From positions 1 through 39,094 of the forward strand of contig JAQUWR010000001.1 in the NCBI GenBank assembly GCA_028692745.1: a DNA stretch of 39,094 nucleotides, read 5' to 3'. Made by a program: the position numbers and the translations under genes. Shown here in pieces: positions 4,497 through 15,355 of this stretch (position 1 is its first letter; the number at the start of each line of letters is the position of its first letter). The notes under the pieces are model-generated. The model was not told the DNA's origin. It saw only the letters and a list, made by a program, of their open reading frames with translations, and made no database searches. The stretch is from Minisyncoccota bacterium (lineage in GTDB: Bacteria; Patescibacteriota; Minisyncoccia; Minisyncoccales; Minisyncoccaceae).

Positions 4497-4525
4497 ATTA
4501 TACCTTTTATATTAATAACTGTCTA
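4497..4525 (-). promoter_or_regulatory. promoter of gpsA, TAGACA-17-TATAAT, ending 6 nt before ATG
   Basis: Minus strand reads TAGACA GTTATTAATATAAAAGG TATAAT ATTTTT ATG. The -35 contains the TAG stop of the upstream helicase gene. Confidence 0.7.
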
Positions 4526-7500
4526 TAATTTTCTATGAGCACAAATATCCTTAAAATCACAATAATTACACTGCCATCCTGGAGTTGGCTTAAAATTACT
4601 TCTCTTGATTTTATTAATTGTTTCTTTTAGTTCTTTTTCTATTTTATCTATTTCTCCTTCTTTGGCACAAAAAGACAAAGAAGATCCATTCTCTAAATAA
4701 AAATAGGTTAATTTTTCTGCTTTAAGACCATAAACCCTTTCTAAGGCTAATTGATATATTAATAATTGTAATTTTTCATCTTTGCTTACTGTTTTCTTGG
4801 GGTTCCCTGTTTTATAGTCAATAATCTCTACAAGTCCATCACCCAAATTATCTATTCTGTCTATTGCTCCAATAAATTGATCTCCGTTTAATTTTAATCC
4901 AAATGTTTTTTCTAGGGCTGGTTCATCATTAATAAAAGCAAGATTTAAACCATTTTGTTTAAAGTTTTCATAAAATAGTTTTAATGATTTTTTTCCTTTA
5001 TCATAGAACTCTTTTCTTATCTTCTCTGATTCATACCAATCATCAGACCATTCTTTATTATAAATATCTATTAATTCGTCTAGAGATGGTATATGATTTT
5101 CTTTCTTTGTTTTTTCTCCCTCCCCAAACAATCCTTTTTGTTCAATCTCCCTATCTTTAACAGCCAAAGCAATAAACTTATGTAAAGTGCTGTGCATTGT
5201 TTTTCCAAAAGTAAAAACAGCCTTACCTCTTGATGGTATTTTTAATATATGTGAAAACTTATATTGCAAAGGACAATTTTTAAAAGCTGTTATTTGAGAA
5301 AAAGAAAAATGATCAGGTAAAAAGTTTTTGATTGTTTTTCCTGAAACATTTGTTTCGTTTGACTCTAACTTGAAACCATTATTCAAAGATTTTCTAAAAC
5401 AAAAATTAGAAGATTTTTTCTTTTCAAGTGCTTCTTTTTTAATTAAATTAGATTCTATTAAAAAAGGTGACGGCTTTTTTAATTCTTTTCCTCCATAATC
5501 TAACCCCCAAGTTAAAAATAGTCCTTTTTTTGCTCTAGTTAAAGCAACATAAAACAACCTTCTTTCTTCCTGAATATGAAAGTCTCCCTGAGGAAGAACC
5601 TCTTTAATTAAATCTTTTGGTATTTCAATTGGAGCTTTTCTTTGATCTGTAGGAAACTTCCTCCTTACTAGATTAACAACAAAAACATATTTAAATTCTA
5701 ATCCCTTAGCTGAATGAACTGTCATTATTTTTACTGCATCAAATTTATCATCCAAACTAGTTTTAAATGATCCTTCTTCCCCAGCATCGATTTCCATTTG
5801 AATTTGCTCAACAAAAGAAATTAAACGAGAATCATTTTGTGTTTGTTCAAATTCTCTAGCCTTTTCATAAAATTGATAAATAATTTCCCATTTTTTTAAG
5901 GTTTCTTCGTCTGCCTTATCTAAATGTTTAGCATAATTTAAATCATTAATAATATGAATAAAAACTTCTCCTACGCTTTTATTTTTTGCTAATTCATAAT
6001 GTTTTTTTAATAATTCTCCTAATTTCCTTAATTTTTCTCTTGTTTCAGCTGTAAACTTATTCATTAAAAACTGACTTTGAATTGCTTCATATAAAGGAAT
6101 ACCTTTTTTATTAGCAAAATGAGTAATTAAAGAAACTTCTTCTGGTTCTAAATTAAAAGGTGACATTCTTAAAATTCTATAAAAACTCATTGAATCATAA
6201 AGATTAATAATAACTCGAAAATAGGAAATAAAATCAAGAATTAAAGGATTAGTGTATAGTCCCTTGGAAGAAAAAAACAAAAAAGGAATACCTGCTTTTT
6301 CAAGACCCCTACTAAATTTATTAGCTGAATCATTAGTCCTACAAAGAATAACAAAGTCTGAAAACTTAGCATCTAAATCAATTTCTTTAATTTCCCAAAT
6401 TTTATTAATTACTCCTGTTATTTCTTCATCTCCTGAGTCAAAACAAAGAAGCTCTATTGTACCATCTTTCTTTTGATTACTTTTAAGTTTTTTATTTATT
6501 TTTGTAAACTTTTTTAAATCAATTCCTTTCTTTTTGGCCTGAATATTTAATTCTTTTATTTCATTTAATTGATATTCTAAACGATTAGGGTTATTTTTTT
6601 GAATAAAATCATATGCTAAATCAAGAATATTTTGAGTTGATCTATAATTCTCAATTAAAACAACTTCTTTGGCATCAGGATAATCTTTCTTAAATCTTAA
6701 AACATTATTAAAAGATGTTCCGCAGAAAGAAAATATACTCTGATCATCATCTAATAAAACATTAATATTATTTCTAGGGCTTGCTAATTTTTGCATTAAT
6801 TCGTATTGCACCCAATTAGTATCTTGAAACTCATCAATTAAAATATATTTAAATTGCTTTCTAAACTTTTCTAAAACATCTTTTCTTTTATCAAAAAGTT
6901 TTATTGTATAATTAATTAAATCACCAAAATCCAATGAACTATTATCAAGTAATAATTTCTGATAAAGATGATATGCCTCAGCGATCTCTTTTAATCTTTC
7001 GTCTTCTTCTATATCATTTAAATCTTTTTTAAGAATATCAATATATTCTAAATAATTTTCAGGATAAATTCCTTCGTTCTTACAATCTGAAAAATGATCA
7101 AGTAAAGCATGAATAAATTTAGTTGGATTACCCATTGGACGGTAATGTTTTAAAAAATGAAACTTATCAAAATTCTTTTTTATTAATATCCATTGAGCTG
7201 GTCTATCTAAAAGCTTATAATCAGTAGGTAATCCTATTAAAAGACCATGATTTTTTAAAACTCTATCGCAAAAAGAATGAAAAGTTGAAATCCAAAAATC
7301 ATAATAATCAAAAGGTAATATGTTTTCTACTCTTTCTTCCATTTCTTGAGCTGCTTTTTCAGTAAAAGTTGTGGCTAAAATTTCATCTGGCTTAACGCCT
7401 TTTTCTTTGATTAAATAAGCAATGCGATTAGTTAAAACAGTTGTTTTTCCTGTTCCAGCCCCAGCTATAACCAAAAGAGGACCTTCTTTAAAACATACAG

Positions 7501-7537
7501 CCTCTTTTTGCTCTTTATTTAGGTTAGATAATTCCAT
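4523..7537 (-). CDS. UvrD/PcrA-like superfamily 1 helicase with C-terminal Fe-S PD-(D/E)XK nuclease domain
   Basis: GPLLVIAGAGTGKTTVLTNRIAYL, LIDEFQDTNWVQ, MTVHSAKGLEFKYVF, RRLFYVALTRAKKGL. C-terminal GAIDRIDNL, EIIDYKTG and CNYCDFKDIC. Confidence 0.92.
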   Translation of the reverse strand: MELSNLNKEQKEAVCFKEGPLLVIAGAGTGKTTVLTNRIAYLIKEKGVKPDEILATTFTEKAAQEMEERVENILPFDYYDFWISTFHSFCDRVLKNHGLLIGLPTDYKLLDRPAQWILIKKNFDKFHFLKHYRPMGNPTKFIHALLDHFSDCKNEGIYPENYLEYIDILKKDLNDIEEDERLKEIAEAYHLYQKLLLDNSSLDFGDLINYTIKLFDKRKDVLEKFRKQFKYILIDEFQDTNWVQYELMQKLASPRNNINVLLDDDQSIFSFCGTSFNNVLRFKKDYPDAKEVVLIENYRSTQNILDLAYDFIQKNNPNRLEYQLNEIKELNIQAKKKGIDLKKFTKINKKLKSNQKKDGTIELLCFDSGDEEITGVINKIWEIKEIDLDAKFSDFVILCRTNDSANKFSRGLEKAGIPFLFFSSKGLYTNPLILDFISYFRVIINLYDSMSFYRILRMSPFNLEPEEVSLITHFANKKGIPLYEAIQSQFLMNKFTAETREKLRKLGELLKKHYELAKNKSVGEVFIHIINDLNYAKHLDKADEETLKKWEIIYQFYEKAREFEQTQNDSRLISFVEQIQMEIDAGEEGSFKTSLDDKFDAVKIMTVHSAKGLEFKYVFVVNLVRRKFPTDQRKAPIEIPKDLIKEVLPQGDFHIQEERRLFYVALTRAKKGLFLTWGLDYGGKELKKPSPFLIESNLIKKEALEKKKSSNFCFRKSLNNGFKLESNETNVSGKTIKNFLPDHFSFSQITAFKNCPLQYKFSHILKIPSRGKAVFTFGKTMHSTLHKFIALAVKDREIEQKGLFGEGEKTKKENHIPSLDELIDIYNKEWSDDWYESEKIRKEFYDKGKKSLKLFYENFKQNGLNLAFINDEPALEKTFGLKLNGDQFIGAIDRIDNLGDGLVEIIDYKTGNPKKTVSKDEKLQLLIYQLALERVYGLKAEKLTYFYLENGSSLSFCAKEGEIDKIEKELKETINKIKRSNFKPTPGWQCNYCDFKDICAHRKL

Positions 7538-7572: not shown

Positions 7573-7595
7573 AAAAACATACCCTTGAAAGTATG
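7571..7595 (-). terminator. short hairpin plus U-tract
   Basis: Minus strand GCATAC…GTATG followed by TTTTTTT (5-bp stem CATAC/GTATG). Confidence 0.55.
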
Positions 7596-7609
7596 CTTTT
7601 AAAAATTAT

Positions 7610-7765
7610 TTATTGTTTTCTTTTTTTAATCTCTTCTATTAATTTATCATGAAATTCATCCAATAAATATGGATCTTGTTTTTCTTTAGCTATTTTAACT
7701 GCTTTTTCAATGCCCTCATCAAATGCTATTGAAAGCAGTTCTTCTATTTTTTTATTTTCTTCCAT
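7610..7765 (-). CDS. 51-aa hypothetical protein, not in the ORF track
   Basis: MEENKKIEELLSIAFDEGIEKAVKIAKEKQDPYLLDEFHDKLIEEIKKRKQ*. ATG (CAT at 7763-7765) lies just after the stop of the 102-aa gene; terminator-like hairpin follows. Confidence 0.65.
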   Translation of the reverse strand: MEENKKIEELLSIAFDEGIEKAVKIAKEKQDPYLLDEFHDKLIEEIKKRKQ

Positions 7766-7768
7766 AAA

Positions 7769-8077
7769 CTATTTTATAGATTGAATTATTTCATGTTGAA
7801 AATCCAACAACTCCCTTCTCAAAAGACCCTCAAAGTCAGAAACCTTTTTAGAAAGAATATCTGTTACTTCAAGTTCTTTTCCTTCTCCAATAAGTTTTGC
7901 TAAATTAACTGCATCTTCTTCTGTTAACGTTCCTAAAACCCTTAGAATAATTCTATCATAAACAACCTCGCTCATCTCATCAATAATTTCTTCTTGTTTT
8001 TCTAAAGGTAAATAATCAAGATTTAATTCTTTGATTAAGTCTTTGCATTGTATTGATACTTTTTCTTTTGTAATCAT
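7769..8077 (-). CDS. 102-aa helical hypothetical protein (possibly DUF5663-like)
   Basis: Open frame in a same-strand cluster; helix-rich composition. Family assignment is from memory only. Confidence 0.7.
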   Translation of the reverse strand: MITKEKVSIQCKDLIKELNLDYLPLEKQEEIIDEMSEVVYDRIILRVLGTLTEEDAVNLAKLIGEGKELEVTDILSKKVSDFEGLLRRELLDFQHEIIQSIK

Positions 8078-8091
8078 AATAATTTATTAAT

Positions 8092-9003
8092 TTATATATT
8101 TGGCCTATCCATTGACTCTTCTATTTTTTCTCTTTCTTTTTCTTCCTCTTCTTTTATTTTTTCATACTTTTCTTTTGCCTGCTCTTCACTTGGAATATCC
8201 CTCATGTTAAATGATTCTGTTTTAACATCTAAATCATATTCTATTTCTTTTTTCTTTTTATTAATCTGGTCTTCATCAAAATCCCTATACCTTCCAGCTA
8301 AATTACCGTCTATAGAAATATCTTCCTGTTCTTCGTTACCAATAACAGTATCTTGTTTTTCCTCAAAAAGGTCTTGATCTTTTTGTTCTTCTTCTAAAAT
8401 TACAGGTTTTTCAGGTAAACTTTCTTCTTTAAGATTGTCAGCATCTTGAGGAAATCTATCTTTATGGTCTTTTAAAAATTCATCAGCTACGCCAGATTCT
8501 ATAATTTTTCTTTTTTCTTCTTCTAGATTCATTGATATCTTTTCTGGTATATCATATTGATTTTTCACCTTCTCTTTAGATGGAAAAAATATGTTTTTAA
8601 TTTTATCAAACAATTTTGTTTTTGTAGGTGTTAATTCCTGAACTAATTTTTCTGCTTCTTCTTTTTTTCTACGGATATTTAATTCTAATTCTTTTTTAGC
8701 TATTAATTCTATACTAAAACCACCACCTTCTAAATTTTTTAATGTTTTCTTGTAATCTTCATGTAAAGAATCAAACTCGTTAACTAACAATGTATCTCTT
8801 TTTTTAAGACCAAGCTTAAAAGATAAGCCTTGTTGTTTTTCAAGTTGTTTTTTAATCTCAATCGCTTTTTGTTTTGTATTTAAAAGTTTTTCTATTTCTT
8901 TTTCTAAAACTTCTTCCTTTAAAAAATCCTCTTTTCTTTCTGATCCACCCTCAAACACTACTTCTTTATTTTTTTCTAAATTTTCAACATCTTTATTCTC
9001 CAT
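8092..9003 (-). CDS. 303-aa charged coiled-coil-rich hypothetical protein
   Basis: Credible ORF with own promoter. Shares a QQG…coil module with the 300-aa neighbour. Confidence 0.8.
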   Translation of the reverse strand: MENKDVENLEKNKEVVFEGGSERKEDFLKEEVLEKEIEKLLNTKQKAIEIKKQLEKQQGLSFKLGLKKRDTLLVNEFDSLHEDYKKTLKNLEGGGFSIELIAKKELELNIRRKKEEAEKLVQELTPTKTKLFDKIKNIFFPSKEKVKNQYDIPEKISMNLEEEKRKIIESGVADEFLKDHKDRFPQDADNLKEESLPEKPVILEEEQKDQDLFEEKQDTVIGNEEQEDISIDGNLAGRYRDFDEDQINKKKKEIEYDLDVKTESFNMRDIPSEEQAKEKYEKIKEEEEKEREKIEESMDRPNI

Positions 9004-9029
9004 TTTTTTATACTTTATTATATAAACAT

Positions 9030-9058
9030 ATCATAATACTTTATTATTGTTGGGTCAA
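9030..9058 (-). promoter_or_regulatory. promoter of the 303-aa gene, TTGACC-17-TATGAT
   Basis: Minus strand TTGACC CAACAATAATAAAGTAT TATGAT, about 26 nt before ATG. Confidence 0.6.
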
Positions 9059-9062
9059 TACC

Positions 9063-9965
9063 TTATTTTTTATTATCAGCTTGTGTTCTACTGCTAAAAT
9101 TCTCTACAATAAATTCTTCTTCCTTTGGTTTTTTCTCATTAATATTCTCAAATGGTTTTATTTTTTTAATATTTATTGCTTGTTTTTTATTTATTTCTTC
9201 ATTTTTTTTATCAAAATCAGATGTTTTTATTTTAATATTTCTTAATTCAAACTCTTTTAGAGAATAATCATTTATTTCAAAAGAAAGCTTGTCTCCCTTA
9301 ATTCTTAAACTTTTTCTCTCAATAAGGGCTTCTTTTAAAAGAAAAAAATTAGCATTTTTATCTTTTAAATTAAAAGGAATTGTAAAAAACTCTGAGCGCA
9401 AACCAGAAACCATAAAACTAATTATTCCATTATATGGAACATTTATTGGTAAACCAATAAGGCCAACCCCTATTAATGATTGTGCTCTTTTTTCTTTTGC
9501 TTTATCTTTTAAGGCTAAAAATAGATTTCTTTTTCCTTCGCTTTTATCTTTTATTTCTTCATCATTTTCTCTGTTCAGCTCAATTAAATAATATCTAATC
9601 TTTTTTATTCTTCTTCCTTCTATAAATTCTTCTACCTGATCATTAGAATATCCTGTTTTTCCTCTTATCTTGGCTAATAATTCAGAATATTCATCTCCTG
9701 TTTCTTTTATTTCTTCATCAATATTTAGATTTTTATTTTTCAAATGAAGAACATACATAAATCCTTGTTGTTCTTTTTTTTGCATTAAAAGTCTATTAAG
9801 TCTTTCTTTAATAAGTAAATATCTTTGTATTTCTTTTTGAGAAAGGTCTTCTCCAAAATATGTTTCCCTTAATTTTACTTTATCTCTTTCCCTGTACTCA
9901 TCTCTAAACTCTAAAAACTGGTCTTTATCTTTGTTTTCGTTAAGATTTTTTTGTTCTTCAGCCAT
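9063..9965 (-). CDS. 300-aa charged hypothetical protein
   Basis: Start lies 2 nt from the stop of the VirB4/TraG-like ATPase gene, suggesting translational coupling. Confidence 0.8.
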   Translation of the reverse strand: MAEEQKNLNENKDKDQFLEFRDEYRERDKVKLRETYFGEDLSQKEIQRYLLIKERLNRLLMQKKEQQGFMYVLHLKNKNLNIDEEIKETGDEYSELLAKIRGKTGYSNDQVEEFIEGRRIKKIRYYLIELNRENDEEIKDKSEGKRNLFLALKDKAKEKRAQSLIGVGLIGLPINVPYNGIISFMVSGLRSEFFTIPFNLKDKNANFFLLKEALIERKSLRIKGDKLSFEINDYSLKEFELRNIKIKTSDFDKKNEEINKKQAINIKKIKPFENINEKKPKEEEFIVENFSSRTQADNKK

Positions 9966-9966
9966 G

Positions 9967-12393
9967 TCAATTAAAATTATAATTTATTTTTTCCTTTAAA
10001 ACAGTAATTCTTTTGTTGATTTCTTCATCAACTAACTCTCTATCTCTTCCATAAGTTAAAGAATAGTATTCTTTTATGTCCCATGCTCTTTCTTTGTCTC
10101 CTTGAGACGGTGGATAAGTTTTTACATTAAATGGTTTTGTTGTTTGACCATCAATAATAGGACGGATATAGAAATTAAAATTATCAATGTTTATTAAATC
10201 AATCATTGAAAAAACTGGTTCAAATTCTTTTTTTACAAATTCTGCATCTTCTGCTCCTATTCTAAAAGAAATAACTGTTCCAACATTACCAAAAATACTT
10301 TCTCTTATTTTTGGTATTAATTGTCCAATAAATTGATGAGAAACAGTTAAGCAAAGTCTATACTTTCTAGCCTCTGATAAAATAGTAGAAATGCTTTCTG
10401 TGGCAAAATTATGAAATTCATCAATATATAAATAAAAATCATTCCTTTTTTCTTCTTCAATATCAATCCTTGAAAAAGCAGCCATAGATAATTTACTAGC
10501 AATAATTAAACCCAATAAAGAACTATTTGTTTCTCCAATGCGTCCCTTGCTTAAATTAACAAGAAATATCTTTTTCTGATCAAGAATTTCTCTAAAATTA
10601 AAAGTACTCTTAACTTGTCCTAATATTGGTCTTAAAAAATCGTTTTGAATAAAAGTATCAAATTTAGAGGTAATGTATGGACCCATATTTTTTAATGATG
10701 TTTCTCCTCCTACTTTTTCTGCCTGTTCTGTCCAAAACTCCCTAACCAAAGAATTTCTACATTTAGAAATAAGGTATTTTCTAAAACCACCATCTGTAAA
10801 AACCCTAGGAACCTCCAATAAAGTATATGTTTCAGAAGGATCATCCATCAAAAGCATTAAAGCATTTCTAGTGTATTGTTCAAACATTGGCCCACCGGTT
10901 TGCTTTAAATCATAAATTTTATCAAAAATACTAATTAATTCATTAACAATAAAGGTTTTTTGTTCTGGAAAATTAGGATCATATTCAAGCATGTTAAGAC
11001 CAACTGCTCTTTTCAAAGAAGCTGGATCAAAAATTACAACATCTTCAATTCTTTCCTTGGGTATTTTTCCTAAAATATCTTCAATTAAATCACCATGTGG
11101 ATCTAAAATTCCAACCCCTTCTTTGCGTAAAACATCTTGTTCTATTAAATTAGAAAGCAAAGAAGACTTACCTGTTCCTGTTTGACCAATAATATAAACA
11201 TGTCTTCTTCTGTCTTCTTTTTTAATTCTTATTTCTTTTTTCTCCTCTCTGTACTGATTAAAACCTAATAAAATTCCTTCTTTAGGAATATTAAATGGTG
11301 ACGGAAAAGTCCTCGCCTTTAATCCTTTAATGTTTGGTGTTTTAAGAAAAGGTGTAGAAAAATGAAAAATACTAGTTAACTCTTCTGTATTCAATATAAT
11401 GCTTTGACGAGGATTAAATAACCGAAAACTATAATTATAAAGAAAATCTTTTAATCCTGATTTCCCTAATTTAACTACTGAAAATTCATTAAGATTGGTT
11501 GAAGAAAACTGATCAAAGGCATTGGTAATTTGAGAAAAAACATCATTGCTTTTTTCTTTATCTTTAATCGAAACAACGATTCTAATGTTTGCTTCAAAAC
11601 TTTGTTTACTTATTTTCTCTTCAAGATGTTTTAATAAATCTTCGTCTACTTTTATTTGTTTTTGGTTTTCTTTTTTTTCTGGAGACTTAAAAAAATTAAA
11701 AGGACTAGTTTCCATTAATGCTCCTCCAAAACTTTTTCCCTTGTTAACTTCATTAATTATTTCTTTTGCTCTGGTATGCCAAAAACTTGAAGAATTTCTT
11801 AAAACTACTTGTATAACAGCTTCTTCTTTTTCTTCTAGCTTGGTTAAAACATTAGTAATAATGGATAATGGATCTGTTTCTAAATAATTATAAGTTCTTA
11901 TAGGAAGATATATTGGTTTTTTAAGTTTTAAATATGCACAATTAATTTCTTCGTTTTCTCCAAAAATATTAAAATCATCACTTTTTTCTATTTGAGCATC
12001 TGGAAAAATGCTATATATTTTTTTCTCAATAAAAGTTTCAAATTCTTTAGGCACAGAAACATAAAAACCTATTTCTCCCTTAACTTTAGCAATCTCTAGC
12101 GTAATCCAAGGCAAAACCCCTAAAAATGATTGTTTTTTTAAAGAAATTAAACTTCCATAAAAATCTTCCATTAATCTAATCCAGTCTTTTTCTTGTTTGC
12201 CCGACTGTCTTAGTTCTTCTTCTGTTTTAGGGGGTATTCTTATGGAAAATAATGTAAAAGACATAGAAGCTTTGATTCTTTTGCTTTCAAAAATCTTTAA
12301 GAAAAAAATCCAGAATACAATTATCAAAAATACTAAAACTGATAGTCCTATTATAATATAACCGTATTCTTGAAAATCCAAAAACAAGTTCAT
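9967..12393 (-). CDS. VirB4/TraG/TraD-like (DUF87-type) secretion or conjugation ATPase with N-terminal TM
   Basis: VYIIGQTGTGKSSLLSNLIEQDVLRKEGVGILDPHGDLIEDIL (Walker A), FYLYIDEFHNFATESISTILSEARKYRLCLTVSHQFIGQL (Walker B/TraM-recognition-like). Confidence 0.88.
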   Translation of the reverse strand: MNLFLDFQEYGYIIIGLSVLVFLIIVFWIFFLKIFESKRIKASMSFTLFSIRIPPKTEEELRQSGKQEKDWIRLMEDFYGSLISLKKQSFLGVLPWITLEIAKVKGEIGFYVSVPKEFETFIEKKIYSIFPDAQIEKSDDFNIFGENEEINCAYLKLKKPIYLPIRTYNYLETDPLSIITNVLTKLEEKEEAVIQVVLRNSSSFWHTRAKEIINEVNKGKSFGGALMETSPFNFFKSPEKKENQKQIKVDEDLLKHLEEKISKQSFEANIRIVVSIKDKEKSNDVFSQITNAFDQFSSTNLNEFSVVKLGKSGLKDFLYNYSFRLFNPRQSIILNTEELTSIFHFSTPFLKTPNIKGLKARTFPSPFNIPKEGILLGFNQYREEKKEIRIKKEDRRRHVYIIGQTGTGKSSLLSNLIEQDVLRKEGVGILDPHGDLIEDILGKIPKERIEDVVIFDPASLKRAVGLNMLEYDPNFPEQKTFIVNELISIFDKIYDLKQTGGPMFEQYTRNALMLLMDDPSETYTLLEVPRVFTDGGFRKYLISKCRNSLVREFWTEQAEKVGGETSLKNMGPYITSKFDTFIQNDFLRPILGQVKSTFNFREILDQKKIFLVNLSKGRIGETNSSLLGLIIASKLSMAAFSRIDIEEEKRNDFYLYIDEFHNFATESISTILSEARKYRLCLTVSHQFIGQLIPKIRESIFGNVGTVISFRIGAEDAEFVKKEFEPVFSMIDLINIDNFNFYIRPIIDGQTTKPFNVKTYPPSQGDKERAWDIKEYYSLTYGRDRELVDEEINKRITVLKEKINYNFN

Positions 12394-12399
12394 TAAATT

Positions 12400-12429
12400 A
12401 GTATACCATAAACTTTAAAATAAGAGCAA
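12400..12429 (-). promoter_or_regulatory. promoter of the ATPase gene, TTGCTC-18-TATACT, ending 6 nt before ATG
   Basis: Minus strand TTGCTC TTATTTTAAAGTTTATGG TATACT AATTTA ATG. Confidence 0.6.
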
Positions 12430-12443
12430 GGGTAAAATAAAAA

Positions 12444-12467
12444 AAGATACTAATTGTTTAGTATCTT
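12444..12467 (-). terminator. 10-bp perfect hairpin overlapping the NUDIX stop codon, followed by U-tract
   Basis: AAGATACTAA-TTGT-TTAGTATCTT; minus strand continues TTTTTATTTTA. The stop TAG lies in the stem. Confidence 0.85.
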
Positions 12468-13253
12468 ATCAAAATAAAGAATTATTTTCCATGCATCATG
12501 TACAGCTATTTTTTTATTTCTGACAAATTCTCTAACAGCAGCAATATCATTATCAATAAAAAATACTTCTTCTGATTCTTCGTCAATATTTAATTCTATT
12601 TTCTCTTTTGTTGTAGGAATATTTAAATGACAAGCAATTAATGGCTGTCTAGAACCATAACTATTATAAATAATTCCCAAAAAACTAACCTTAATATTAT
12701 TCATAACAATTCCTGTTTCTTCTAAAAGTTCTCTAAAAATAGTAGAAAAAATAGAATTATCTTTTTCTGGATCAAAATACCCACCCGGAAGAAGAGTAAT
12801 AACCTCTGGATCAAAAGCCGTATTAGCTCTCTTAGCAAATAATATACAGCCATTGGGATTTTTAAGACTAGGCTGAGTTATAGCAATGGCCCCAAAAGAT
12901 ATAGGCAAACATGTTCCCTTGTCTAAAGGAATATTACAAAGGTTAATTTTTTCTTTTCTTTTATTAAAAGTTGAATAAAATTGAGAAAATTTTCCTCTTC
13001 TAAATCTAATTTTTAAAATTCCTTGTTTTTCAGATATCTCCATAATGCTTCCAATAATTCCATCAAAATCATTGGGACTATCTAAAAGATGTTTCTCCCA
13101 TATTTCTTGAATTTTCTTTTCTTTCTTTAAAGAAAATCTAACTTTTTTGTTTTCTTCGATCAAAACAACTTGATTAAAGTTGTCAAATATAACCTGCCCC
13201 AAGAAAAGGTATTTTTCAAGAGAAAGACGTTTTGCAATTTCAAAGTACTTCAT
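12450..13253 (-). CDS. NUDIX hydrolase with long N-terminal region
   Basis: LLPGGYFDPEKDNSIFSTIFRELLEETGI Nudix-like box. Confidence 0.85.
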   Translation of the reverse strand: MKYFEIAKRLSLEKYLFLGQVIFDNFNQVVLIEENKKVRFSLKKEKKIQEIWEKHLLDSPNDFDGIIGSIMEISEKQGILKIRFRRGKFSQFYSTFNKRKEKINLCNIPLDKGTCLPISFGAIAITQPSLKNPNGCILFAKRANTAFDPEVITLLPGGYFDPEKDNSIFSTIFRELLEETGIVMNNIKVSFLGIIYNSYGSRQPLIACHLNIPTTKEKIELNIDEESEEVFFIDNDIAAVREFVRNKKIAVHDAWKIILYFDKILNN

Positions 13254-13257
13254 TTTT

Positions 13258-13295
13258 CACCCCCTACATAGTAATACATTGAGAATTTATGTCAA
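13258..13295 (-). promoter_or_regulatory. promoter TTGACA-16-TACTAT plus strong Shine-Dalgarno-like AGGGGGTG for the NUDIX gene
   Basis: Minus strand TTGACA TAAATTCTCAATGTAT TACTAT GTAGGGGGTGAAAA ATG. The -35 contains the AlkD TGA stop. Confidence 0.6.
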
Positions 13296-13975
13296 GATTT
13301 TAAAATTCTTTTTCTTTCTTGTTCTGGAAGTTTTTCAATAGCATATCTTAACATTGTTCTTGGCATTTTTTTATAATGTTTTTTTAAAAATATTTTCTCC
13401 ATCTCAACATCTCTCTTTCCTATTTCTCTCAACATCCACCCTACTGCTTTATGAATCAAATCGTGCTTATCATTTAAAAGAATCTCTGATATCTTAAGAG
13501 CATCTTTAAAATCATTATTTTTAATAAAGGTAAAGGTAGAGATAATTGCAACCCTTTTCTCCCACAAGTTTTCTGATTTAGCAAAATCATAAAGAATACT
13601 TCTATCCTTGTCTATTAAATAATTTCCAATAATATTAGGAGCTGATAAGTCAACTAAATCCCAGCTATTAATTTTTCTAATATTTTTAATATAAAAATCA
13701 AACACTTTTTCTTCATTATTTTTATACTTAAAAATTAAAATCAACAGAGCTGTTAATCTGTATTCGTGAATATTGCTTTTAATCAATTCTTTTAAATCTT
13801 TAAAAGAAGCTTCTTTAAATTTTTTAGCTACTTCTCTTTGATCGGGAACCCTAATTCCAATAAAAAAATCCCCTTCTCCGTATTCCCCTTTTCCTGTTTT
13901 GAAAAAACGAGCCAATATTCTGGCTTTTTCTTTGTTTGCTTTTTTATTTAATTCTTTTTTTATTTCTTCAATCAT
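13292..13975 (-). CDS. DNA alkylation repair protein (AlkD-like HEAT repeat)
   Basis: GEGDFFIGIRVPDQREVAKKF, NSWDLVDLSAPNIIGNYL, WEKRVAIISTFTFIK, KAVGWMLREIGKRD. Confidence 0.92.
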   Translation of the reverse strand: MIEEIKKELNKKANKEKARILARFFKTGKGEYGEGDFFIGIRVPDQREVAKKFKEASFKDLKELIKSNIHEYRLTALLILIFKYKNNEEKVFDFYIKNIRKINSWDLVDLSAPNIIGNYLIDKDRSILYDFAKSENLWEKRVAIISTFTFIKNNDFKDALKISEILLNDKHDLIHKAVGWMLREIGKRDVEMEKIFLKKHYKKMPRTMLRYAIEKLPEQERKRILKS

Positions 13976-14715
13976 AATTTAAAATAAAAAGAAATCATTG
14001 CTCCAATTAAACAAATAATTCCGAATACAAGGGTAAACATTGAAAAATTAATTTTTTTTGCCCAATCTAATATAAACTTTAAAGAAATTAAACCAAAAAC
14101 AAAACTAAACAATAAGGCAATCCAACCCTGTGAAGCTAAAGTAGGATTTTTAATAAATAAATACAAAGAAGAACCTAAAACAACTGGGACAGAAATTAAA
14201 TATGATTGCTTAAGTATTGTTTCTGGGTCTTTTTCAAAAAAAGAAAGACCAAAAATAGTAGAACCAGAACGAGAAACTCCTGGAATAGCTGATAGCCCTT
14301 GAAGGACCCCGACTATAATTGCAGAATATTTTTTATTGATTCCTATATTAATTTTATTTCCCTGCACAAAAGATGTAAAAAGAAGTCCAATTCCCATAAG
14401 AAACAATAAACCTGATCCCATAATTATATTACCTGAAATTTGATAAAAAACATAACCAATAGCTCCAGAAATAATTGTTACAATTACAAAAAACTTAAAA
14501 AAATCTTTATCCTTTGTTAGGATTAAATCAATCCAGTCTTTATAAAAATAAACTAAAACAGCAAGCATTGTTCCTAAATGAAGAAATATTGCTAAATCTA
14601 AAGGATTTAAGTCTTCAACTAAAAACTTAGAAACTAAAGCTAAGACTCCTTCGCTGGAAACAGGGATCCATTCAAATATTCCTTGAACTATACCTAATAA
14701 AATATATTCCCACAT
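13972..14715 (-). CDS. uppP: undecaprenyl-diphosphatase
   Basis: GIVQGIFEWIPVSSEGVL, LGTMLAVLVYF, AIPGVSRSGSTI. Confidence 0.93.
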   Translation of the reverse strand: MWEYILLGIVQGIFEWIPVSSEGVLALVSKFLVEDLNPLDLAIFLHLGTMLAVLVYFYKDWIDLILTKDKDFFKFFVIVTIISGAIGYVFYQISGNIIMGSGLLFLMGIGLLFTSFVQGNKINIGINKKYSAIIVGVLQGLSAIPGVSRSGSTIFGLSFFEKDPETILKQSYLISVPVVLGSSLYLFIKNPTLASQGWIALLFSFVFGLISLKFILDWAKKINFSMFTLVFGIICLIGAMISFYFKL

Positions 14716-14716
14716 A

Positions 14717-15355
14717 TTATTTTTCTATTCTAATAAAACGATATTTATCAAACTGATCTTTAAAAAATTCGTACTTAGAATAGTTATTTTTTATAATCTT
14801 TTCTATATCTTTTAATTGTTTTTCGTCAAATTCCATAAAAATCACTCCTTTATCTTTTAAAAATAACATTGCTTTTGATAAAAACTCTTTAATTATTTCT
14901 AATCCGTCAAAACCAGAAAATAAAGCAACATGAGGCTCAAATTCTTTGACGTCATCACCAACCTCATTAATCCTACTTAAAGCAACATAAGGGGGATTAG
15001 CTAAAATAAAATCGTATTTTTTATTAATGTTTGAAAAAACATCTGTCTTAATCAATGAGTATCTATGATTATCAATTTTATTTAACTCTAAATTAATTTT
15101 AACTTGTTCTAAAAATAAATCCTCTTTTTCTCCAAAATCACAATAAGAATTATCAATATTTTTAAGAACTGCTAAACCAATACAGCCTGAACCAGAAAAA
15201 AGATCTAAGCAAGTCGAATCTTTTTTTATTTCTTCAATAGCTAAAGAAACCCAATAACTTGTTTCTTCTCTCGGAATAAAGGGTCTCTTTCTCAAATCAA
15301 TCTTTGCTCCTAAAAAATCTTTTTTTCCTTCTTTGTAATCTTCTGGTAATTCCAT
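14717..15355 (-). CDS. PrmC/HemK-like N5-glutamine methyltransferase (start probably MELPED rather than 15391)
   Basis: RKRPFIPREETSYWV, CLDLFSGSGCIGLAVL, FILANPPYVAL. Confidence 0.85.
   Translation of the reverse strand: MELPEDYKEGKKDFLGAKIDLRKRPFIPREETSYWVSLAIEEIKKDSTCLDLFSGSGCIGLAVLKNIDNSYCDFGEKEDLFLEQVKINLELNKIDNHRYSLIKTDVFSNINKKYDFILANPPYVALSRINEVGDDVKEFEPHVALFSGFDGLEIIKEFLSKAMLFLKDKGVIFMEFDEKQLKDIEKIIKNNYSKYEFFKDQFDKYRFIRIEK

Follow-up and report, generated by a model that had tools for sequence, protein, structure and literature searches.

A small conserved protein, FHD, encoded beside or fused to a VirD4/TrwB-like ATPase in Patescibacteria

We analysed a 39,094-nt stretch of DNA from a Minisyncoccota bacterium (assembly GCA_028692745.1, contig JAQUWR010000001.1), which as a whole is called the window here, and studied within it the locus at 7610-12393. 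The locus holds five open reading frames (ORFs), of 808, 300, 303, 102 and 51 amino acids (aa), all on the minus strand and in a single operon. The largest encodes a putative type IV coupling protein (T4CP) of what we call family A, one of two T4CP families in the genome and its relatives; the smallest encodes a member of a family that we call FHD. The features of the locus are:

9967..12393, minus strand: family-A T4CP (VirD4/TrwB-type ATPase by its sequence), 808 aa, with an N-terminal transmembrane (TM) helix, an N-domain of ~300 aa and a RecA-type motor
12301..12357, minus strand: predicted N-terminal TM helix, aa 13-31 (Kyte-Doolittle hydropathy 3.16 over 19 residues)
11164..11187, minus strand: Walker A motif GQTGTGKS, aa 403-410 (G403, G406, G408 and K409 invariant in alignment A3, which holds 41 family-A ATPase homologs)
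10414..10434, minus strand: Walker B region, aa 654-660 (D658 and E659 invariant in alignment A3)
9063..9965, minus strand: 300-aa partner, charged and coiled-coil-like, with a weakly hydrophobic hairpin (QSLIGVGLIGLPINVP...)
8092..9003, minus strand: 303-aa protein, a paralog of the 300-aa protein that is truncated and lacks the hydrophobic hairpin
7769..8077, minus strand: 102-aa five-helix protein, DUF5663-like (PF18908, 16.7 bits, below the cut-off of 23.7)
7610..7765, minus strand: 51-aa FHD protein, reduced here to the core domain (alignments A1 and A2)
7646..7660, minus strand: FHD signature DEFHD, aa 36-40
7573..7600, minus strand: hairpin and U-tract, probably a weak intrinsic terminator that ends the operon (minimum free energy -9.7 kcal/mol, z -4.48)

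The ATPase gene and the 300-aa gene are separated by 1 nt, not by the 2 nt given in the original prediction for this DNA. For selection tests the ORFs were compared pairwise with the orthologous genes of a congeneric species (G003, L038). The ratio of nonsynonymous to synonymous substitution rates (dN/dS) rises from 0.10 (ATPase) through 0.19 (102-aa protein) to 0.28 (300-aa protein); the 303-aa protein, for which G003 has a 177-aa counterpart at the same place, gave 0.46, indicating weak purifying selection. For the 51-aa ORF dS is saturated, and the nonsynonymous and synonymous proportions are pN 0.13 versus pS 0.74. The five ORFs are thus real genes, and those that are testable are under purifying selection. 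Together with the coordinates and the fold z of -4.5, this bears out the five ORFs and the terminal hairpin that had been predicted. A consensus terminator scanner did not call the hairpin at 7573..7600, because it demands three G-C pairs. No tRNA was found in the window.

The ATPase had been taken for a VirB4-like protein, and here the profile scores favour TrwB/VirD4. It scores 34.3 bits with the Pfam model TrwB_AAD_bind (cut-off 20.5) and 32.2 bits with DUF87 (cut-off 23.2), and falls just under the cut-off with TraG-D_C (21.3 bits; cut-off 22). NCBIfam and Pfam group it with the TrwB/VirD4/TraD coupling proteins and with DUF87, the TraD models match, and a sequence search for solved relatives returned TrwB only. 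Judged by these matches the protein is a VirD4/TrwB-type T4CP, and the earlier description of a membrane-anchored ATPase of conjugation or secretion type agrees with them and with the N-terminal TM helix. Several other identities were considered. VirB4 was ruled out, as its models are marginal (TIGR00929, 19.8 bits; cut-off 643); the VirB4 model PF19044 selects a different protein of the source genome, on contig C14, and no sequence similarity was detected between the ATPase N-domain and the N-terminus of VirB4/TrsD. FtsK/SpoIIIE was ruled out (PF01580, 15.1 bits; cut-off 24), as was a replacement of FtsK, a true FtsK being encoded separately on contig C15. The HerA helicase was rejected in the same way (HerA_C, 12.5 bits; cut-off 22), with only the shared DUF87 domain passing. 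A viral origin was rejected too: a scan of viral contigs gave five distant loci with 29-35% identity over the motor domain only; phage matches to the ATPase, mainly in Bacillus phages, have 23-24% identity.

The conserved novelty of the locus is its smallest gene. In distant families the ATPase is adjoined by proteins of 113-158 aa, and the 51-aa ORF corresponds in alignment to their C-terminal core. The family shares the motif LLDxFHDxL; alignments A1 and A2 show no variation at D36, H39 and D40 and almost none at G18, A22, F38 and L42. Two samples were searched: 60 relatives from the order and 286 genomes of the class. FHD is single-copy in 30 of the 60 relatives, 29 of which also have family A, and is present in 222 of the 286 class genomes, once per genome. 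When a genome is called family-A-positive from its best match to the A3 profile (E < 1e-200, read by hand), 216 of the 286 have both proteins, 21 have family A only, six have FHD only and 43 have neither. The Fisher value for this co-occurrence is 1e-28; the species are not independent, so it is descriptive and not a strict probability.

The two genes are also neighbours. Coordinates, along with a placed ATPase in the same genome, are available for 116 FHD matches: 113 of them sit immediately upstream of the ATPase on the same strand, 99 within 200 nt of it. Twenty class-wide loci around FHD matches gave 17 with FHD just upstream (one small ORF intervenes in two of these), two with a fusion and one in which FHD was found by genome search and had been lost from the ORF map. 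Named genomes with the pair belong to Portnoybacteria, Moranbacteria, Yanofskybacteria, Staskawiczbacteria, Wolfebacteria and others, and the pair also occurs in other classes of the phylum Patescibacteria. At two f131 loci, FHD has a C-terminal TM helix of its own. The locus in the window is an atypical and perhaps changing member of this group, because FHD has been cut to its core or lost in the genus (G001, G002) and new partners are present. In the literature searched we came across no account of the FHD family, subscription literature being outside the search.

The closest association of the two proteins is seen in natural fusions, which we used in place of a mixed FHD and ATPase alignment (A4) that misplaced short rows. 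An FHD core forms the N-terminus of 22 of the ATPases examined (with a divergent core in L195), and the carriers include Nomurabacteria, Taylorbacteria, Campbellbacteria and two other lineages. In the fusions measured, the maximum 19-residue hydropathy is ≤1.62 and mostly near 1, so that there is no strong TM helix, whereas nearly all unfused full-length members reach 1.9-3.7. In these fusions the FHD module thus stands in for the membrane anchor. The shortest of them (823 aa; a homolog, not the window protein) was modelled with AlphaFold2; the model consists of three helices from FHD, an N-domain of alpha/beta type and the motor, with a mean predicted local distance difference test score (pLDDT) of 88.9 and a predicted TM-score (pTM) of 0.76. 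In a Foldseek search with this model TrwB was the best match at the domain level (TMt 0.63-0.67, E ~1e-12); Cag-beta, the DotL type IV coupling complex and HerA were also found, and the VirB4 protein TrwK aligned over the full length with a low TM-score.

A second protein can occupy the position before the ATPase. In Uhr-, Falkow-, Magasanik-, Komeili- and Kerfeldbacteria another conserved small helical protein lies directly upstream:

L167, L169, L173, L179, L182, L186, L201 and other ABY1 loci: ABY1 slot protein, GEETAxKI...IPGVNKFFLEQEAKIKxDKI

Profile comparison shows it to be unrelated to FHD, and it has no Pfam or NCBIfam match. It thus seems that this T4CP calls for a small protein of its own in the position before it. 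FHD itself shows no detectable homology with the ABY1 protein, with the DUF5663-like protein of the operon or with a group of small proteins, c29, found at related loci.

Coupling proteins often work with auxiliary proteins, such as DotM/DotN of DotL (PMC12857230), and CagZ is a small regulator that keeps the T4CP Cag-beta monomeric (PMC9886983). FHD, best taken for an auxiliary of this kind, is like these in being the dedicated extra protein of a T4CP; it differs from them in having no convincing sequence match to solved chains. Its adjacency (113/116), co-occurrence and fusions amount to the dedicated genetic association with a T4CP that serves as the criterion for D4Aux proteins.

The source genome (553 kb in 30 contigs) was searched and read in stretches, and it encodes both a second T4CP and a type IV secretion system (T4SS):

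L058 (G000:C17), 10088-13063: second T4CP, family B (N-domain gene and motor gene)
L084 (G000:C14:20001-37090), 8164-14872: T4SS locus beside dnaA (VirB4, TrsD-like, PrgI, 147-aa DUF1493-like and a 672-aa protein)

The second T4CP is split into genes of 441 and 548 aa. Among the 60 relatives the coupling proteins likewise form two families, A fused (~800 aa) and present in about 35 genomes, and B split and present in nearly all; the two are homologous in both the N-domain and the motor (hhalign probabilities of 99.96 and 100). The inspected family-B loci have a housekeeping neighbourhood with secD, secF and a sigma/HARE gene, mostly along with pgk, a DHH gene, an RNase H-like gene, murJ and lepA. 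Family A has as a rule one copy per genome across the class in a conserved chromosomal context, which suggests vertical inheritance.

The VirB4 of the T4SS locus has 593 aa and scores 358.8 bits with the CD1110 family (cut-off 325), PrgI/VirB3 falls just under the Pfam cut-off, and the 672-aa protein, with several hydrophobic stretches and no Pfam match, is probably VirB6. The original prediction had held that a complete classical T4SS elsewhere using this ATPase would refute it; what the genome encodes on contig C14 is the core of a T4SS that has a VirB4 of its own. Of the VirB6, VirB8 and pilin genes that it proposed to seek in the rest of the genome, the 672-aa protein is the probable VirB6. 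VirB4 occurs in 58 of the 60 relatives. The relaxase PF03432 was found in none of the 60, while the positive control was detected, in keeping with the earlier statement that there is no relaxase; a Replic_Relax search was also negative, but its control went undetected too, making it uninformative alone. These findings on contig C14 match those of Quinonero-Coronel et al. (2025; PMC12102498), in which Patescibacterial T4SSs lie near dnaA and are without relaxases, and T4CPs lie far from virB4. In the sole genetically tractable species of Patescibacteria the T4SS is essential for epibiotic growth, and a recognisable coupling protein or relaxase was not found in its T4SS cluster (PMC10633639).

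The reading that we favour, at about even strength, is that the locus encodes a chromosomal family-A T4CP with a dedicated auxiliary protein, FHD, and three lineage-specific extras, and that it probably feeds a substrate to the T4SS encoded elsewhere; we infer both the substrate and the link to the system beside dnaA. The ATPase would form a hexameric ring at the inner membrane face, held there by its TM helix or, in the TM-less fusions, via the FHD module. FHD would bind the cytosolic N-domain and tether or regulate the ring or recruit substrate, comparably to CagZ or DotM/DotN, and the fusions indirectly support a physical interaction with the ATPase. The complex would then pass its substrate to the T4SS of VirB4/PrgI/VirB6 type, a protein being a likelier substrate than DNA because there is no relaxase. 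The 300-, 303- and 102-aa proteins would be family-specific additions, either further adaptors or substrates.

A number of observations weigh against this reading. About 40% of the order sample has no family A, and yet VirB4 is near-universal; the T4SS can therefore do without family A, and the more widespread family B could be the T4SS's own coupling protein. No linkage of family A to virB4 was seen in the genomes examined, and PMC12102498 places only 148 of 5,713 Patescibacterial T4CPs near virB4 and raises exaptation. The ancestral neighbourhood of family A is a housekeeping one (a GtrA-like protein, dnaX and serS). Deletion of the TM domain inactivates TrwB, PcfC and MobB (PMC7431656), and TM-less fusions are unexpected for an obligate membrane T4CP. 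Finally, G001 and G002 keep the ATPase and have no FHD.

Several of these points suit an unlikely but substantial alternative, in which family A is a T4CP-derived DNA pump of HerA/FtsK type that acts on the DNA of its own cell and is regulated by FHD, without any part in secretion. The neighbourhood with dnaX and the missing virB4 linkage are as expected of such a motor, as are the large clade without a membrane anchor, the similarity to HerA in the Foldseek search and the exaptation suggested in PMC12102498. It fits less well with the presence of a separate FtsK, with the strong N-terminal TM helix kept in most members and with TrwB, rather than HerA or FtsK, as the closest relative of the motor. 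No nuclease family was matched among the operon partner genes (a genome-wide NurA search was not made).

A bolder form of the coupling-protein reading is somewhat more doubtful still. Here family A and FHD would be a two-component coupling complex ancestral to the phylum and the missing substrate receptor of the host-interaction T4SS, with FHD as a tether or receptor able to replace the anchor; the ABY1 lineages would have swapped in their unrelated helical protein.

It is improbable that the locus is a stand-alone system for DNA exchange or import, comparable to Ced of the Sulfolobales or to TraB-type systems, in which the ATPase and a membrane-hairpin protein would work without VirB components. 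In its favour are a weak similarity to CedD (19.6 bits; cut-off 600) and the plasmid-borne homologs of the ATPase. Full-length ones with ~24% identity occur on Bacillus plasmids, by relaxase-like and conjugation genes, and split versions on haloarchaeal plasmids. The DUF87 ATPases of Bacillus plasmids (e.g. NZ_CP154917) are homologous across the N-domain and the motor (23.6% identity over 85% of the query), but they sit among conjugation genes and have a relaxase-like neighbour, neither of which accompanies the single-copy chromosomal pair of Patescibacteria. On the Bacillus subtilis plasmid NZ_CP154917 (L085) the ATPase directly precedes a replication-relaxation gene and conjugation genes. 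Against a stand-alone system there is no conserved polytopic membrane partner and no relaxase, and the hairpin protein is limited to the family of the window and one relative.

That restriction applies to all three of the larger partners. The family of the 300-aa protein evolves fast and ranges from 300 to 614 aa; ~40% of its residues are charged, and it carries a hydrophobic hairpin rich in Gly and Pro. Its members of 385-614 aa, encoded directly after the ATPase in relatives that belong to the window's family, match the 300-aa protein by profile (probability 98%). The hairpin hydropathy is weak in the window's genus (1.2-1.5) compared with 1.65-2.3 elsewhere. The 303-aa protein matches only the N-terminal half of this family (hhalign probability 94.8, 114 columns). 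The 102-aa protein (12-member alignment A6; AlphaFold2 pLDDT 85.5) has homologs at the same locus in G003 and G011 that pass the PF18908 cut-off; DUF5663 matches occur in ten of the 60 genomes, most of them at this locus, and no structural relative was matched in the PDB. Since none of these three proteins occurs beyond the family of the window and one related family, they cannot be the core of a general minimal machine.

The original prediction had proposed just such a machine from all five genes, a model that is now very improbable and largely refuted by the poor conservation of the partners. The single operon with a terminator hairpin after its last gene agrees with it. Against it, conservation beyond the two families is limited to the ATPase and FHD, the gene for the 303-aa protein encodes a truncated paralog of its neighbour, G001 and G002 lack both that protein and FHD, and a T4SS is encoded elsewhere. 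Of the undescribed partners that had been put forward, the 51-aa ORF is upheld by its conservation beside or within the ATPase, and the other three are not. A relic of an integrated conjugative element is hardly credible, since for all the T4CP ancestry and plasmid-borne homologs there is no relaxase, purifying selection is strong and the single copy keeps its chromosomal context across the class.

Some neighbouring genes may be recorded here. In several distant families (L048, L053, L064, L067) the family-A ATPase is adjoined by a 233-382 aa family, c30, with a conserved DD...VCAxDEV pattern, possibly nuclease-like. In others (L056, L062, L065, L066) it is followed by a variable charged protein of 476-609 aa and the ~75-aa helical c29; this resembles the window's 300-aa and 102-aa genes, although homology of c29 with the 102-aa protein is not detectable. 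Directly after the operon, at 4523-7537 of the window, lies a gene for a UvrD/AddA-like helicase with a PD-(D/E)XK nuclease domain, a conserved neighbour at many loci of the window's family.

Compared with TrwB/VirD4 coupling proteins, family A is alike in motor fold and sequence family, in its Walker residues and, for most members, in the N-terminal TM helix; it is unlike them in the ~300-aa N-domain between TM helix and motor, in being unlinked to relaxase or T4SS genes and in the occurrence of TM-less FHD fusions. Its distance from virB4 and the lack of a relaxase are shared with the VirD4-like T4CPs of PMC12102498, and it is very probably among the 5,713 VirD4 homologs counted in that work, which in its available part describes no division into families A and B and no small partner, pairing or fusion. 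These VirD4 homologs can now be split into two families, one of which is tied to a small conserved partner, and the natural fusions are evidence that FHD and the ATPase are a working pair. This provides a concrete gene pair with which to ask what, if anything, passes through the T4SS of Patescibacteria.

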